Below the pieces are notes generated by a model. It did not search any database, was not told where the DNA came from, and saw only the letters and a list, made by a program, of their open reading frames with translations. This document shows positions 3,131 through 24,575 of a stretch of DNA of 28,426 nucleotides, piece after piece. This DNA is from a virus, in IMG/VR virus record IMGVR_UViG_3300037261_000049, positions 1 through 28,426 of that record; one strand, written 5' to 3'. How positions within the stretch are numbered: the first letter of the stretch is position 1; the number at the start of each line of letters is the position of its first letter. A program made the position numbers and the translations under genes.

Positions 3131-3294
3131 CCATTACAATGCTGTTTATTTGGTTGGCCTATAAGCTTCCCGTTCATGTTGATATGCCGTTGATGATAGC
3201 CCCACAAGCTGTATGCCCATTGAACCTATGGGAAGACACGCATACAGCCTTGGATATGCGTAACCTATTCAGAAGCGTAAAGGAACCTATTTAA
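3127..3294 (+). CDS. Small hypothetical protein
   Basis: 55 residues, hydrophobic N-terminus (MTITMLFIWLAYKLPVHVDM). Its ATG overlaps the previous stop (ATGA). Last of the run of very small early genes before the amidoligase. Unrecognised. Confidence 0.5.
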   Translation: MTITMLFIWLAYKLPVHVDMPLMIAPQAVCPLNLWEDTHTALDMRNLFRSVKEPI

Positions 3295-3303
3295 GGGGGA
3301 ATT

Positions 3304-4689
3304 ATGCCAAATAATAACGATAGTGTATTAAGCTTCAATCATCCTGCTAACGATAATCATAGACATAGCTCTGTTAGATCATACACCTATCATATGCCAT
3401 TCTCTCCGCCTGTTTTTTCTCTAGGGTGGGAATTAGAGGCTAATCATTCAGCAGCACGTTTACCCGCAGGGATTAATCAAATCTCTGACGGTAGTGTTGA
3501 CGGCGACGGTACTGAATATGTTGTACTTCCCTCTGTTACTCGGTCCCCCCGTTTCGTTCTAGGACTTCTTAAAGACTTAGTGCATAGCCCTAAGCTGAAT
3601 ACAGATAAATCATGTGGATTTCATATTCACATGAGTGTACAAAATGCAAAACTTCCTAAACTCCGTCAATGGTCATTAGCTACAGAGGCCCTAGCGCAAC
3701 GGATAGAAGAGTTAGCATTTAGAGCCGTACCAGAGGCTAGGAAAGAGAATCAGTACTGTAGAAAAATACAGCTTACGGGTTCTGGTACGTCTTTCCCATG
3801 TGAGAAGTATAGTAATTCTAGGCGGTATCACTGGCTAAACACCGTTGAAATGTTTAGACCGAATGGCATACGTACGGTAGAGGTAAGACTGCTAGGGAAT
3901 ACTCACCGATGGAAATACCTATTAGCGTGGTCTACCTTTTCCTTGTTGTTAGGCCGGGAAGGATGGAATCTTGCACATAAACCGTTTACTAGTTGGCAAA
4001 ACTCTATTGATAGGCTTTCAGACTTTTTGAAAGCGATTGAATTAGACATAAAACCTCTGAGTAAAAAACATGAACCCATTCCAGCATGGGTATATAGCAA
4101 TCTAAAAAACTTAGGGATTGATTTTACAGCATTTGATAGGCCGATGAAAAAGCTAGTACAGGCCGAGGCAGACGTATCAGACCATAGCAGAGTGTTTTAT
4201 TCAGATAATCAGGAAACAATACCGAATGAATCGAATGATGATGAATCGAATGATGATGAAGAGGATAATAGTTGTCCATGCGGATGTGGGGAAGAGGGAC
4301 GTTGTTATAGCCAGATGCACTTTGACGGGGACTGTGCTAGTAATGATTGTACTAATTGTCATTCAGAAGGTAATTGTGCCCCTGAACATTGTGGGTATTG
4401 TAGACGAGATGCGCATGATCACGGATCTTTATGTGCATGGAGTAGCTGTAACGTATGTAGTAGGCAACGCGCTATTTCTCAAATAGTGATAGCGTCTACT
4501 CCTGCCCTAGAACCACGAAGAGGCTATACTTATATTACTAGCTTAACACCCTTGTTAACAATTACTGGTATCGAAAATAATCCATACACCCTTAATATAA
4601 TAGCTAACAGTATGTTAAATCCCCATGAAGAGGCTTTAAGCCTAGAGCGTGAACGGTCATTACCTATTCAAAATGGAGGTACTTTCTAA
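3304..4689 (+). CDS. Amidoligase (COOH-NH2 ligase) with cysteine-rich tail
   Basis: 461 residues. The N-terminal two thirds carry hallmarks of the phage/bacterial amidoligase family (Amidoligase_2, glutamine-synthetase-like COOH-NH2 ligases, PF12224 type): GWELEAN at 41-47 with paired acidic residues, DGDGTEYV at 66-73, SCGFHIHMS at 103-111, YHWLN at 175-179 and VEVRLLGN at 192-199. Known members are thought to form amide or peptide bonds using ATP. An acidic linker (309-321, two copies of ESNDD) leads to 13 cysteines at 324-385, including three C-x4-C-x2-C units, probably metal-binding. It ends on the ATG of a glutamine amidotransferase, which may supply ammonia. Substrate unknown: host peptide, cell-wall peptide or a metabolite. 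The family call is firm; the tail is unusual. Confidence 0.8.
   Translation: MPNNNDSVLSFNHPANDNHRHSSVRSYTYHMPFSPPVFSLGWELEANHSAARLPAGINQISDGSVDGDGTEYVVLPSVTRSPRFVLGLLKDLVHSPKLNTDKSCGFHIHMSVQNAKLPKLRQWSLATEALAQRIEELAFRAVPEARKENQYCRKIQLTGSGTSFPCEKYSNSRRYHWLNTVEMFRPNGIRTVEVRLLGNTHRWKYLLAWSTFSLLLGREGWNLAHKPFTSWQNSIDRLSDFLKAIELDIKPLSKKHEPIPAWVYSNLKNLGIDFTAFDRPMKKLVQAEADVSDHSRVFYSDNQETIPNESNDDESNDDEEDNSCPCGCGEEGRCYSQMHFDGDCASNDCTNCHSEGNCAPEHCGYCRRDAHDHGSLCAWSSCNVCSRQRAISQIVIASTPALEPRRGYTYITSLTPLLTITGIENNPYTLNIIANSMLNPHEEALSLERERSLPIQNGGTF
4228..4257 (+). repeat. Tandem 15-bp duplication inside the amidoligase gene
   Basis: Two perfect copies of GAATCGAATGATGAT encode ESNDD twice in the acidic linker between catalytic and cysteine-rich parts. 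In frame, so it lengthens the linker without breaking the protein; typical of replication slippage. Confidence 0.8.
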
Positions 4690-5618
4690 TGTGCGGTCTA
4701 GGCGCTTTTATCGGAAAAGGAAATACAAATAGGCTTATTGCCCTAGGCTCTATGCTAGAGGATAGAGGGTCTGACAGTGTTGGACTTGCTTACGTCAAAG
4801 AGGGTAAAATTCAATTAGCTAAAATTGCAGAACGTCCCTGTTTAGCATTGAATATGTCGTTACGTCTATCCGTTACAGAAATGGCCATTAGCGGTATGGG
4901 TATTCTACATACCCGGCAAGCTACGCAAGGGGCAATCACAAGCGATAATGCACATCCGTTTTTGGATGACGGGATAGCATTTGCACATAACGGTATCATT
5001 CTGAATGATGATGAATTCGGGAAATATGCCGTTGATAGTCAATCGCTCATTCACGGTATCAAGGCTAAGGATTTCTCAAAGTATGAAGGGCCTATCGCCC
5101 TGCTATGGATACAGGACGGCAAGCTACATGCATATCGTTGTGGCAATCCTCTTTATAGAGGCCGGCACCATGGTGTTACCTACCTAGCTAGTGAGAATGA
5201 ACAATTAAAAGCTATCGGATGTACTTCTGTCAAGGAATTGAAGGAAGGATTTATCTACACGTTTCATTCTCCTGAAAATATGACAACAGAAAAGGTTAAA
5301 CGAAATAAGAGCATAGTATTTTCGTATCAAGGCAAAACATGGGATGATTTCCCATTAGACGGATGGAAAAAGCCTGAATACAATGACAAGCTAGACGCGC
5401 TGCAAATTAGCGAGGGAAGGAAATGGGATTATCCAAAAGAGAAAGAGGATTTTAGAACGCTAGAGGATATGGACCGAGATAGGATAACAACTGACTGGTG
5501 CGATATGTGTGGGTCCAAGGGTGAGCTTTCCGAGGGATATTGTCTAGATTGCATTATGTGGATGAAAGAGGAAGGTATGAAAGACTTACCGCCAGTGAAT
5601 CAATTAGAGGTACGATGA
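4689..5618 (+). CDS. Class-II glutamine amidotransferase with C-terminal zinc ribbon
   Basis: 309 residues. The N-terminal Ntn-hydrolase glutaminase domain is clear: catalytic Cys2 after Met removal (MCGLGAFIG), RGSDSVGLAY at 26-34, LHTRQAT at 73-79, NAHPF at 87-91 and AHNGI at 99-103. This domain hydrolyses glutamine and passes ammonia to a partner. No synthase domain follows; instead residues 271-288 hold a CxxC...CxxC zinc ribbon (C271, C274, C285, C288). The start overlaps the amidoligase stop (TAATG), so the two are almost certainly made together and may form an ammonia-dependent amide-forming complex. Acceptor unknown. Confidence 0.85.
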   Translation: MCGLGAFIGKGNTNRLIALGSMLEDRGSDSVGLAYVKEGKIQLAKIAERPCLALNMSLRLSVTEMAISGMGILHTRQATQGAITSDNAHPFLDDGIAFAHNGIILNDDEFGKYAVDSQSLIHGIKAKDFSKYEGPIALLWIQDGKLHAYRCGNPLYRGRHHGVTYLASENEQLKAIGCTSVKELKEGFIYTFHSPENMTTEKVKRNKSIVFSYQGKTWDDFPLDGWKKPEYNDKLDALQISEGRKWDYPKEKEDFRTLEDMDRDRITTDWCDMCGSKGELSEGYCLDCIMWMKEEGMKDLPPVNQLEVR

Positions 5619-7568: not shown

Positions 7569-7783
7569 CACCCTGCTTTAGCGATGCTGATATGAAGCGG
7601 TTGAAGAACAAGCCTCATAATCCTCATGAGGATCGAGCGCAGATCACTCATAGTGATTTAATGTCTCTCCTCGCCCGCCTGGAAGCTGGTGAACGATATA
7701 TTTCGTACCTTGATCCCAAGGTGTGCATTGATCCAGAGGGAAATGAATTACTTCTGGCATGGAGGAAATCATGCGGACGATAG
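7565..7783 (+). CDS. Hypothetical protein
   Basis: 72 residues (MTPCFSDADMKRLKNKPHNP...). The start at 7565 was chosen for the ATGA overlap. A helical centre (ITHSDLMSLLARLEAGERYI) resembles small phage proteins that accompany HNH genes. Its end overlaps the HNH gene. Confidence 0.6.
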   Translation: MTPCFSDADMKRLKNKPHNPHEDRAQITHSDLMSLLARLEAGERYISYLDPKVCIDPEGNELLLAWRKSCGR

Positions 7784-8223
7784 AACAACGGTTTTTTGCG
7801 AAGGTGATTAAAACTCCAAAGTGTTGGGCTTGGATTGGAGCCAAGGGAAGTAACGGATACGGCCAGATGCAGATGGGGCCAAGGAAGCAACAGGCGCACC
7901 GTATCGCATACGAATTATTTGTAGGCCCTATCCCCGAAGGATTAACGATTGACCATATTTGCCGATTCAAAGACTGTGTAAATCCTTCCCATTTGCGAAC
8001 CATGACGATGCTTGAAAATGTGATGGATGGATGCGTCAATGCCAAGAAAGATCATTGTCCGCAAGGCCATAAATACGACGAAGCCAACACGATCCATTAT
8101 CGGACTTTCCGCTATTGCCGCGAATGTAAACGCGCAAAAGACAAAGCCCATCATCTGAAATATCGTGATCGTATTCTTGCCCGTAAAAGAGAAGCCTGGC
8201 GCAAGGCGGCTGGCCGTGAGTAG
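7771..8223 (+). CDS. HNH endonuclease
   Basis: 150 residues. The block NGYGQMQMGPRKQQAHRIAYELF, followed by GLTIDHICRFKDCVNPSHL, is the classic HNH_3 core, with the metal-binding DH pair and the N/H of NPSHL. A C-terminal CPQGHKYD...YCREC zinc motif follows, frequent in homing-type endonucleases. The start at 7771 follows GGAGG; a longer frame from 7759 exists. Free-standing, possibly a homing nuclease that spreads the surrounding segment. Confident on family, not on target. Confidence 0.85.
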   Translation: MRTIEQRFFAKVIKTPKCWAWIGAKGSNGYGQMQMGPRKQQAHRIAYELFVGPIPEGLTIDHICRFKDCVNPSHLRTMTMLENVMDGCVNAKKDHCPQGHKYDEANTIHYRTFRYCRECKRAKDKAHHLKYRDRILARKREAWRKAAGRE

Positions 8224-18567: not shown

Positions 18568-18785
18568 TCAACGACGAACTAGCTGGATTCATATTAACAC
18601 CTGAAACCGGAGGAGAATACTTTCGTCGTGTCATGGAAGCCGAGAAGAAAATGGGTCCTTTAAGTCAAGACGAACGTCTCACTATTCTGAAATCTCTTGG
18701 TAAATCTATTACATTAGGAGAACTGTTGGATATGATGGCAGGGAAGAGAGTATTGATAGTTAAGGATCAGGATGAAAAAGACTAA
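18564..18785 (+). CDS. Hypothetical protein
   Basis: 73 residues (MINDELAGFILTPETGGEYF...), helical, Glu/Lys-rich. The ATG at 18564 overlaps the previous stop (ATGA); another ATG at 18555 would add three residues. Its end overlaps the HNH gene. Unrecognised. Confidence 0.6.
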   Translation: MINDELAGFILTPETGGEYFRRVMEAEKKMGPLSQDERLTILKSLGKSITLGELLDMMAGKRVLIVKDQDEKD

Positions 18786-19146
18786 GGTCAAGAAAGAGTG
18801 GAGTCCTCATCCATACTTAGTAGCGGCTTTTCGCAAAGTCTGGTATTGGTCCCCAGAGCGACGACATGCATTAAGCTGTGCAAAGATAGGAAAAGATCAG
18901 TGGCAGTGTCGCACATGTCATAATGTTGTGGTTAAAGAAAAATACGTGACTAAGAAAGGCCGAAGCCGTACCAGAATGACAGGTAGTGTAGACCACATTG
19001 TCCCTATTGGTAAACAACCCCGTAGTTGGAGCGAGTACAATGAGTATTTAGCTAAAACGTTCTGTTCAGCAGACAACCTTCAGGTACTATGCAAATCTTG
19101 TCATTCCGCAAAGAGTAAGTCTGAGGGTAAAGAGAGGACTAAATGA
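18772..19146 (+). CDS. HNH endonuclease
   Basis: 124 residues. C46xxC49 (CRTC), GSVDHIVPIGK with the DH pair, and ADNLQVLCKSCHSAKS with the N and the terminal CxxC H: a complete HNH of the McrA/GmR87 style with a zinc site. Basic at both ends. In the replication module next to the polymerase; may be a homing nuclease or take part in DNA processing. Overlaps its upstream neighbour by 14 bases. Confidence 0.85.
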   Translation: MKKTKVKKEWSPHPYLVAAFRKVWYWSPERRHALSCAKIGKDQWQCRTCHNVVVKEKYVTKKGRSRTRMTGSVDHIVPIGKQPRSWSEYNEYLAKTFCSADNLQVLCKSCHSAKSKSEGKERTK

Positions 19147-20214: not shown

Positions 20215-21132
20215 ATGCACCTTAAATCTTACCCTTCCATATTCAACATGGGCCATAAGGCCGTTGCTGATCTATTAGTAGGACCTGTATACGTCCAAGA
20301 AAAAATCGACGGCAGTCAATTTTCATGGGGATTAGATGAAGAAGGAAATGTAATCACCCGTTCAAAAGGTGCTGAGATATTCTTAGAAACAGTTGATAAA
20401 CTGTTCAAAGGAGCTGTGGAATACGTCCATTCGGTCAAAGCATTGCTAGTGCCAGGTTGGACTTACAGGGGCGAAGTGCTGTGTCGTCCTCGTCATAACA
20501 CATTAGTATACGACCGCGTACCACGACACAATGTCGTGATATTTGACGTGAATACCAGTGAAGAAACATATTTAACTTATGAGAGTATGACGGAGTATGC
20601 CGCAGGATTGGATCTAGAGGTAGTACCGTTACTATACACAGGGATGGTAGAATCAGCTGATCAATTAAAGGCGTTCCTTGAAACACAGAGTTTCTTAGGT
20701 GGCCAAAAAGTGGAAGGTGTGGTGGTAAAACCGGTCGGGTATCACCTTTTTGGTGTTGATAAAAAAGCTTTGATGGGAAAGTATGTTTCTGAAGCCTTCA
20801 AAGAGATACATGGTGGCGAATGGCGCAAAGCGAATCCCTCTAACAATGAGATAGTCGAGAAAGTGGCGCTAGTGTACAAAACCCCTGCCAGGTGGCAGAA
20901 GAGTGTTCAGCATCTTAAAGAAGCAGGGCAGCTTGAGGATTCCCCTAGGGACATCGGGAAGATATTGAAAGAAATCAGTACTGATGTGTTAAAAGAATGT
21001 GAGCAAGAGATTAAAGAAGAACTGTTTAGGGCTGCTTGGCCTAAGATATCGCGTATCATCATAGCTGGGTTTCCCGAGTTTTATAAGTCAGAGCTTTTGA
21101 ATAAACAGTTTGTTACGGAGGAAAAGAAATGA
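20215..21132 (+). CDS. RNA ligase
   Basis: 305 residues from ATG 20215 (GGAGAG upstream; a start at 20188 would lie inside the promoter). Nucleotidyltransferase motifs: VQEKIDGSQF with adenylated lysine K30 and KIDGS; YRGEVLC; VVIFDVN; VEGVVVKP (motif IV); LMGKYVSE (motif V). This is the Rnl2-like / RNA_ligase family that seals nicked RNA with ATP. A long helical C-terminal part follows. With the overlapping HAD phosphatase it forms a repair pair that could mend tRNA cut by host anticodon nucleases. No polynucleotide kinase is visible in this window. Confidence 0.85.
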   Translation: MHLKSYPSIFNMGHKAVADLLVGPVYVQEKIDGSQFSWGLDEEGNVITRSKGAEIFLETVDKLFKGAVEYVHSVKALLVPGWTYRGEVLCRPRHNTLVYDRVPRHNVVIFDVNTSEETYLTYESMTEYAAGLDLEVVPLLYTGMVESADQLKAFLETQSFLGGQKVEGVVVKPVGYHLFGVDKKALMGKYVSEAFKEIHGGEWRKANPSNNEIVEKVALVYKTPARWQKSVQHLKEAGQLEDSPRDIGKILKEISTDVLKECEQEIKEELFRAAWPKISRIIIAGFPEFYKSELLNKQFVTEEKK

Positions 21133-21656
21133 AAGTACTCATGACGGATTTTGACGGCGTGTTAAATAGTGAAGCCAGTTTCCATATGGAAATACGTCGA
21201 AAGACGCTACATGTTTCTAATACTCTGTCAGTAGTGGCCTGTTCCAATCTTCAGTACATTCTTGATCAAGATCCAGAGATAAAGATAGTCATATCTTCCA
21301 CATGGCGTAAGATACACACGATGCAGGAACTGAAGAACATTCTTAATTCTTACGGAGTGAATCCGGCTAGAGTGATTGATAAGACTCCCTCCGTCTTTAG
21401 CGGAAATCGAGCCCATGAGATTAACTTATGGCTGGAAGAACATCCTGGGGATCATGTAGTGGTAATTTTAGATGATGACAACGATGTGCTTGGTGTAACA
21501 GATAAACGTTGTCATGTGTTCCAGACCACTTGGGAAGATGGATTGCTCTTTAAACAAGCTAAAATGATAAGTAAACTATTCCGTGAAGCATCAGAACCCC
21601 TTCCAGGGTGGACCGCAGACGGTGTGACGTATACTTCAAAGCAACCAGGAGTTTAA
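21129..21656 (+). CDS. HAD phosphatase of the RNA-repair (SAK) type
   Basis: 175 residues. MTDFDGVLNS gives the nucleophile D7 and D9; IVISSTWRKIH is motif II; NRAHEINLWLEEHPGDH and VVILDDDND are later HAD motifs. The order matches 'HAD domain in Swiss Army Knife RNA repair proteins', where it removes end phosphates. The start overlaps the ligase stop (ATGA), so they are co-made. Likely cleans 3' phosphates or cyclic phosphates before ligation; exact end chemistry is not visible. Confidence 0.8.
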   Translation: MKVLMTDFDGVLNSEASFHMEIRRKTLHVSNTLSVVACSNLQYILDQDPEIKIVISSTWRKIHTMQELKNILNSYGVNPARVIDKTPSVFSGNRAHEINLWLEEHPGDHVVVILDDDNDVLGVTDKRCHVFQTTWEDGLLFKQAKMISKLFREASEPLPGWTADGVTYTSKQPGV

Positions 21657-24074: not shown

Positions 24075-24575
24075 ATGAGTTATGCTGACACAATTGGTCA
24101 GTCTTTTGGCTTCTTAACAATTAAGTCTGTATTATTTAAAGATCAATATCACAATCCATATGGTCTTTGTGAATGTGTCTGTGGAACCCGTAAGATTATA
24201 GCACTAAATGGCGTAGTAAGCGGTATTGTCAAATCATGTGGTTGTTGGTTACGTGAATCAACTGGGAAAAGAACAAAGATATTACATACAACTCACGGTC
24301 ATAGTAGTCCACCGAGTTCAACGTATCGTTCTTGGATTAGTATGTGGGCACGAACTACTAATCCCCACCGCAACAGCTATAAAAATTATGGTGGACGAGG
24401 TATCACAGTATGTGATCGGTGGAAGCAGTTTGAAAACTTTTTACAGGATCTGGGATTACGACCAACAGGAACATCATTAGATCGTATTAATAATAGTGGT
24501 AATTATACACCAAAAAATTGTCAATGGGCTACGAGGAAAGAACAAGCAAATAATCGGAGGAAATGTTATGCGTGA
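24075..24575 (+). CDS. AP2/HNH-type homing endonuclease-like protein
   Basis: 166 residues following a well-known phage pattern: [10 protein letters not shown] at the start, CECVCGTRK...VKSCGCW zinc-like cysteines, [31 protein letters not shown] and [20 protein letters not shown], ending QANNRRK. These free-standing proteins carry AP2-like DNA-binding and HNH-like nuclease features and behave as homing endonucleases. It precedes and slightly overlaps the next gene. A GGGGAG site is upstream. Confidence 0.8.

Follow-up and report, generated by a model that had tools for sequence, protein, structure and literature searches.

A minimal phage cassette of a Cys-rich amidoligase and a class II glutamine amidotransferase, a candidate two-component amide ligase

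The DNA analysed here (the window) comprises 28.4 kb (28,426 nucleotides) from IMG/VR, virus record IMGVR_UViG_3300037261_000049. Its early-side region contains two adjacent genes on the + strand, encoding an amidoligase (3304..4689; 461 amino acids, PF12224 Amidoligase_2) and a class II glutamine amidotransferase (GATase; 4689..5618; 309 amino acids), the nucleophile of which is Cys2. The amidoligase stop codon TAA (4687-4689) and the GATase start codon ATG (4689-4691) have one base in common. Each gene is preceded by its own Shine-Dalgarno-like sequence, read as AAGGGGG 5' of the amidoligase (3293..3299, +) and as GGAGG for the amidotransferase (4675..4679, +). The two open reading frames and their one-base overlap are exact to the base as given in the initial annotation, and both enzyme identities proposed there were matched by Pfam and PHROG families.

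Downstream of the pair are genes for a DnaB-like helicase, PolA, nucleases and an RNA ligase. Location upstream of replication genes (DnaB-like helicase and PolA) would suit a pair that amidates phage DNA bases or a nucleotide. However, this is very unlikely, as no gene of the window was recognised as encoding a base-modification enzyme and relatives of the ligase and GATase have no nucleic-acid-binding assignment. Other genes in the window include one 3' of the pair for a protein of the nucleotide- or ligand-binding YspA/YAcAr SLOG family (PF10686; 6699-7034). The RNA ligase gene (PF09414; 20188-21132) has a four-base overlap with a HAD_SAK_2 'Swiss Army Knife RNA repair' phosphatase-like gene (21129-21656), and these two are likely to form an RNA or tRNA repair pair. 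A trypsin-like serine protease with a hydrophobic N-terminus (PF13365; 21855-22484) is unusual for a phage early/middle region. Two genes encode HNH-type endonucleases, possibly homing (7759-8223 and 18772-19146), which 24075-24575 resembles without a Pfam match.

The same adjacent gene pair is kept in relatives at 54-65% identity and dN/dS was about 0.1-0.2 in the comparison of L010 with L012, the only one in which dS was unsaturated. Together these indicate that the pairing is more than chance. Purifying selection acts on both genes, most dS values being saturated.

A profile made from an alignment of GATases, with amidoligase-linked GATases as seeds, recovered 80 loci from IMG/VR. The alignment was needed, as single window proteins used as IMG/VR queries found two remote amidoligases and zero GATases, and variability ruled out scanning with a wide alignment of amidoligases. 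In 76 of the 80, the GATase had an amidoligase on its own strand, next to it or close by within the locus; this frequency describes this GATase clade and not all GATases. In the remaining four the contig ends where the amidoligase would be expected. Most neighbouring amidoligase and GATase genes overlap or are within about 26 bases of each other. This survey of homologue neighbourhoods, which had been suggested as a check, thus favours the earlier view of amidoligase and GATase as a functional unit. In bacterial genomes, the profile of the window-clade GATase gave 80 loci. All of these lacked a nearby amidoligase, and no prophage or host copy of the pair was found among them. The open frames of these bacterial loci (443-697 amino acids) suggest asparagine synthetase/GlmS-type proteins.

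A GATase flanked by two amidoligases, found in 14 loci, is a further minimal form. In the central 5 kb of L027, L028, L029, L042, L045, L053, L070, L078 and L086, the two flanking amidoligases are different and both carry a Cys-rich domain of their own at the N-terminus. Solitary PF12224 amidoligases with no GATase nearby are encoded by a Porphyromonas phage (L181), Bacillus phage 035JT001 (L182) and Faecalibacterium phage FP_Taranis (L183), indicating that amines other than ammonia could serve this family. Bacillus phage 035JT001 has a gamma-glutamyl cyclotransferase gene about 1 kb 3' of the amidoligase.

Phage cassettes containing an amidoligase and an amidotransferase have already been published (PMC5498523, PMC10580990), so the novelty implied by the initial annotation was too high. 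In annotated examples, the full cassette consists of the amidoligase, the GATase, a PF14395 COOH-NH2 ligase, a protein of roughly 190 amino acids and an ATP-grasp ligase, often with a gamma-glutamyl cyclotransferase; a gene table is available for UFV-P2 (PMC3890496). In PMC5498523 it was named a peptidoglycan modification cassette and superinfection exclusion was suggested. An amidoligase and GATase (PF12224, PF13522) have also been reported in OM43 phages, with the same role suggested (PMC10580990). No experiment defining the substrate of a phage cassette was found in the literature searched.

Full cassettes of phiEco32, LUZ24/PaP3, RIO-1/HP1 and Alcaligenes phage QDWS535 have, as in the window, a PF12224 amidoligase beside a class II GATase that has a CxxC...CxxC ribbon at its C-terminus, and a one-base gene overlap like that of the window is also seen in QDWS535. 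In the window GATase this ribbon (C271, C274, C285 and C288; 5499..5552, +) is the one common to phage cassette GATases, which supports common descent, although it is missing from the GATase of L013. Unlike the full cassettes, the window, its relatives L010, L011 and L012 (54-65% identity) and the more distant L013 have only the amidoligase and GATase. Neither a PF14395 ligase nor a phage ATP-grasp ligase was found in the window, a genome fragment, or in ten minimal-type relatives, the records of which were searched from end to end (58.8, 55.6, 62.3 and 90.8 kb records among them); these records are linear by classification and might be incomplete. The same searches recovered both ligases in two full-type control records. 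A gamma-glutamyl cyclotransferase (PF06094) was likewise not found in the window or the records of L010 to L013, and is present in several other minimal types. OM43 phages MEP401/402, reported with PF12224 and PF13522, would have a minimal pair like that of the window. Arthrobacter Laroyevirus (Edmundo) also has one amidoligase and one GATase, with no PF14395 or ATP-grasp ligase seen beside the pair, but it differs from the window in that a neighbouring gene is annotated as a hydrolase (AIG2-like in cluster AL) and the amidoligase has no Cys-rich module. What is new is the type of cassette, minimal and with a Cys-rich amidoligase, while the pairing itself was already known. The initial annotation mentioned neither the Cys-rich part of the ligase nor the missing cassette genes.

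The window amidoligase scored 29 bits against PF12224 (E = 1.2e-6), above the gathering cut-off of 22, and its relatives score up to 123 bits; the PHROG match is also to amidoligase (E = 3.7e-5). An alignment of 36 relatives, a structural model and a structure search place the catalytic glutamine synthetase (GS)-like domain at residues 35-215 (3406..3948, +). Residues E43, E45, D62, S64, E71, H107, H109, R146, Y175, E193, R195 and W209 are invariant in the 36 phage amidoligases, and the ExE, GxHxH and ExR patterns among them resemble the metal, histidine and Glu-x-Arg motifs of glutamine synthetase. In the AlphaFold2 model, the core (residues about 35-285) is good, with pLDDT mostly above 85, and the C-terminal third is poor. 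The core aligned best with glutamine synthetases (Z 10.8 over 172 residues, rmsd 3.2) and with YbdK-type carboxylate-amine ligases (Z 10.7 over 199 residues, rmsd 4.9), giving a predicted glutamine-synthetase-like fold. The model also matched 38 viral models at E ≤ 0.001 and those with names are almost all amidoligases. A GS-like ligase fold and conserved acidic, His and Arg residues, the lack of either of which the initial annotation had named as refuting its reading, were thus both recovered, the first as a prediction and the second in all 36 sequences. The window protein has the predicted fold and metal/ATP-type residues of the YbdK/glutamate-cysteine ligase/glutamine synthetase superfamily but no sequence-level match to its solved members, a search of solved structures by sequence with the amidoligase family giving nothing significant. 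In tblastn against 50,697 phage records, the window amidoligase had no match at 1e-5, only marginal matches (E up to 10).

The short and modest PF12224 match (29 bits) might be taken as a sign that the enzymes are decayed or non-catalytic. This is extremely improbable given that the catalytic residues are invariant, the frames are intact and overlapping in relatives and dN/dS is low in the one unsaturated comparison.

The GATase scored 24 against GATase_4, above the cut-off of 23, and 25.6 against GATase_6, narrowly below the cut-off of 27; its PHROG match is to a GlmS-type amidotransferase (E = 6e-17). All 28 GATases aligned start with MCG, placing the catalytic Cys directly behind Met. Across these 28 relatives R76, N101, G102 and D116 are invariant and T79 is nearly so; together they correspond to the glutamine/oxyanion residues R73, T76, N98, G99 and D123 of GlmS. 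The model aligned with PurF at Z 24.5 (200 residues, rmsd 2.2), with GlmS at Z 24.2 (200 residues, rmsd 2.3) and with EgtC at Z 21.8, and the predicted fold is GlmS/PurF-like. The protein has in common with the glutaminase domains of GlmS and PurF the fold, the N-terminal Cys and the glutamine-binding residues, but a short C-terminal CxxC ribbon is present in place of a synthase domain. Identity with GlmS or PurF proper was rejected, as there is no synthase domain and scores are far under the equivalog cut-offs.

From the lack of a synthase domain, the amidoligase had been deduced to be the acceptor of ammonia. The domain is indeed absent, but ammonia transfer does not follow from this alone: EgtC, whose structures also match the model strongly, is one of the stand-alone class II GATase-like enzymes that act as gamma-glutamyl amidohydrolases. 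In ergothioneine synthesis EgtC partners EgtA, a GS-fold ligase. By analogy, the amidoligase might add a gamma-glutamyl group (or other amine) that is then trimmed by the GATase-like protein acting as an Ntn hydrolase rather than as an ammonia donor. Many amidoligase loci of the full, double and solo types also contain a gamma-glutamyl cyclotransferase, as would suit such a pathway, but the window-clade records have none. In sequence-profile comparisons, GlmS and PurF matched the GATase far better (E = 8e-27 to 5e-20) than did EgtC (E = 0.15). Against the EgtC model TIGR03442, the window protein scored 15.3 bits (E = 0.009), missing the equivalog cut-off of 218.65 bits; the L012 GATase reached E = 6e-6, still far under the cut-off. 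While the grouping of the GATase with degradation genes in PMC5498523 would agree with a trimming hydrolase, we consider this role rather unlikely.

The C-terminal third of the amidoligase distinguishes it from full-type enzymes. An acidic low-complexity linker, NESNDDESNDDEEDN, encoded by an exact 15-nt tandem repeat (4226..4270, +), leads into a Cys-rich module (residues 324-385; 4273..4458, +) with 13 Cys and 3 His, all of which are identical in the amidoligases of the window, L010, L011 and L012. In the +1 frame over the linker is a methionine-rich ORF (4226-4486), which is probably due to chance. Judged from its residues, the module probably binds metal of the zinc type and its sixteen Cys/His ligands would fit four zinc ions; AlphaFold2 predicted this part at low confidence. 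It is followed by a fast-diverging tail (4459..4686, +), predicted to be mostly disordered, in which the window protein is about 28-33% identical to its relatives, compared with 69-77% in the core. Identities between members of the window clade are 69-83% for the core and 28-49% for the tail beyond the module.

Scored as at least two CxxC motifs, a Cys-rich extension was present in 33 of 35 minimal-type amidoligases and in none of 39 full-type ones (non-redundant, complete sequences), with Leptolyngbya L184 counted as full-type on the basis of an ATP-grasp ligase annotated beside its amidoligase. The two minimal-type proteins without it are from L013 and Arthrobacter phage Edmundo. The extension is C-terminal in the window clade and N-terminal in other minimal types, where a wide alignment compared with solved structures gave weak LIM/zinc-ribbon matches (E of 0.1 or worse). 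Independent support for the association of minimal cassettes with the module is thin, because labels change few times on the amidoligase tree; a tree-based test contained 1-2 independent pairs only, putting significance out of reach.

The pair could be a remnant of the full peptidoglycan modification cassette, retaining one step on peptidoglycan precursors (for example, amidation of D-Glu or diaminopimelate) that alters wall hydrolysis or superinfection. A role in peptidoglycan modification is the published hypothesis for the family, in the passages on the cassette in PMC5498523 and in PMC10580990, where Iyer et al. 2009 are cited for it, and the same two enzymes and CxxC ribbon are present in full cassettes. 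MurT-GatD (PMC3267633) supplies a cellular precedent in which a ligase and a separate glutaminase amidate peptidoglycan. This likeness to the window pair is by mode of action and is an analogy only, since MurT is a Mur ligase and GatD a class I GATase, families unrelated to those of the window. No direct evidence for peptidoglycan as the target was found in the literature searched. Moreover, minimal-type records lack the other predicted peptide ligases and full-type amidoligases lack the Cys-rich module, which together suggest a changed substrate. A retained step on peptidoglycan is therefore possible, although we would not expect it.

Our preferred interpretation, to which we assign a probability of about 0.58, is that the pair is a two-component glutamine-dependent amide ligase, for which we infer the transfer of ammonia between the proteins, metal binding, the type of substrate and the purpose of the reaction. 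Removal of Met would expose Cys2 of the GATase, allowing it to hydrolyse glutamine to ammonia. With ATP, the GS-fold amidoligase would form an activated carboxylate, which the released ammonia would attack to give a carboxamide. This minimal form would act without the COOH-NH2 and ATP-grasp ligases, and the Cys-rich module would probably bind zinc and help to dock a macromolecular substrate. A macromolecule is a better guess than a small metabolite because other ligases for building a peptide are absent and a zinc module is probable. The substrate would most likely be a host protein or cell-wall precursor, modified early in infection. For the anti-defence role that had also been considered plausible no evidence was found; a known defence system was rejected, as PADLOC models gave no match.

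More speculatively, minimal amidoligase systems may form a separate functional class, in which a single-step pair amidates a host macromolecule (a protein being the most interesting case) and a zinc-type module recognises the substrate in place of the ligases of the full cassette; we regard this as a tentative proposal with the balance against it.

Hundreds of sequenced phages have an amidoligase cassette, common phages of Pseudomonas aeruginosa and E. coli among them. With the two-gene version, two proteins and one probable reaction are left to work out, making reconstitution far easier. Should substrate selection lie with the Cys-rich module, the module would provide a direct handle for finding the substrate by pull-down and would allow amidation of a protein or other macromolecule to be told apart from synthesis of a small peptide. 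A minimal cassette with a Cys-rich ligase thus makes an old question simpler to approach by experiment.
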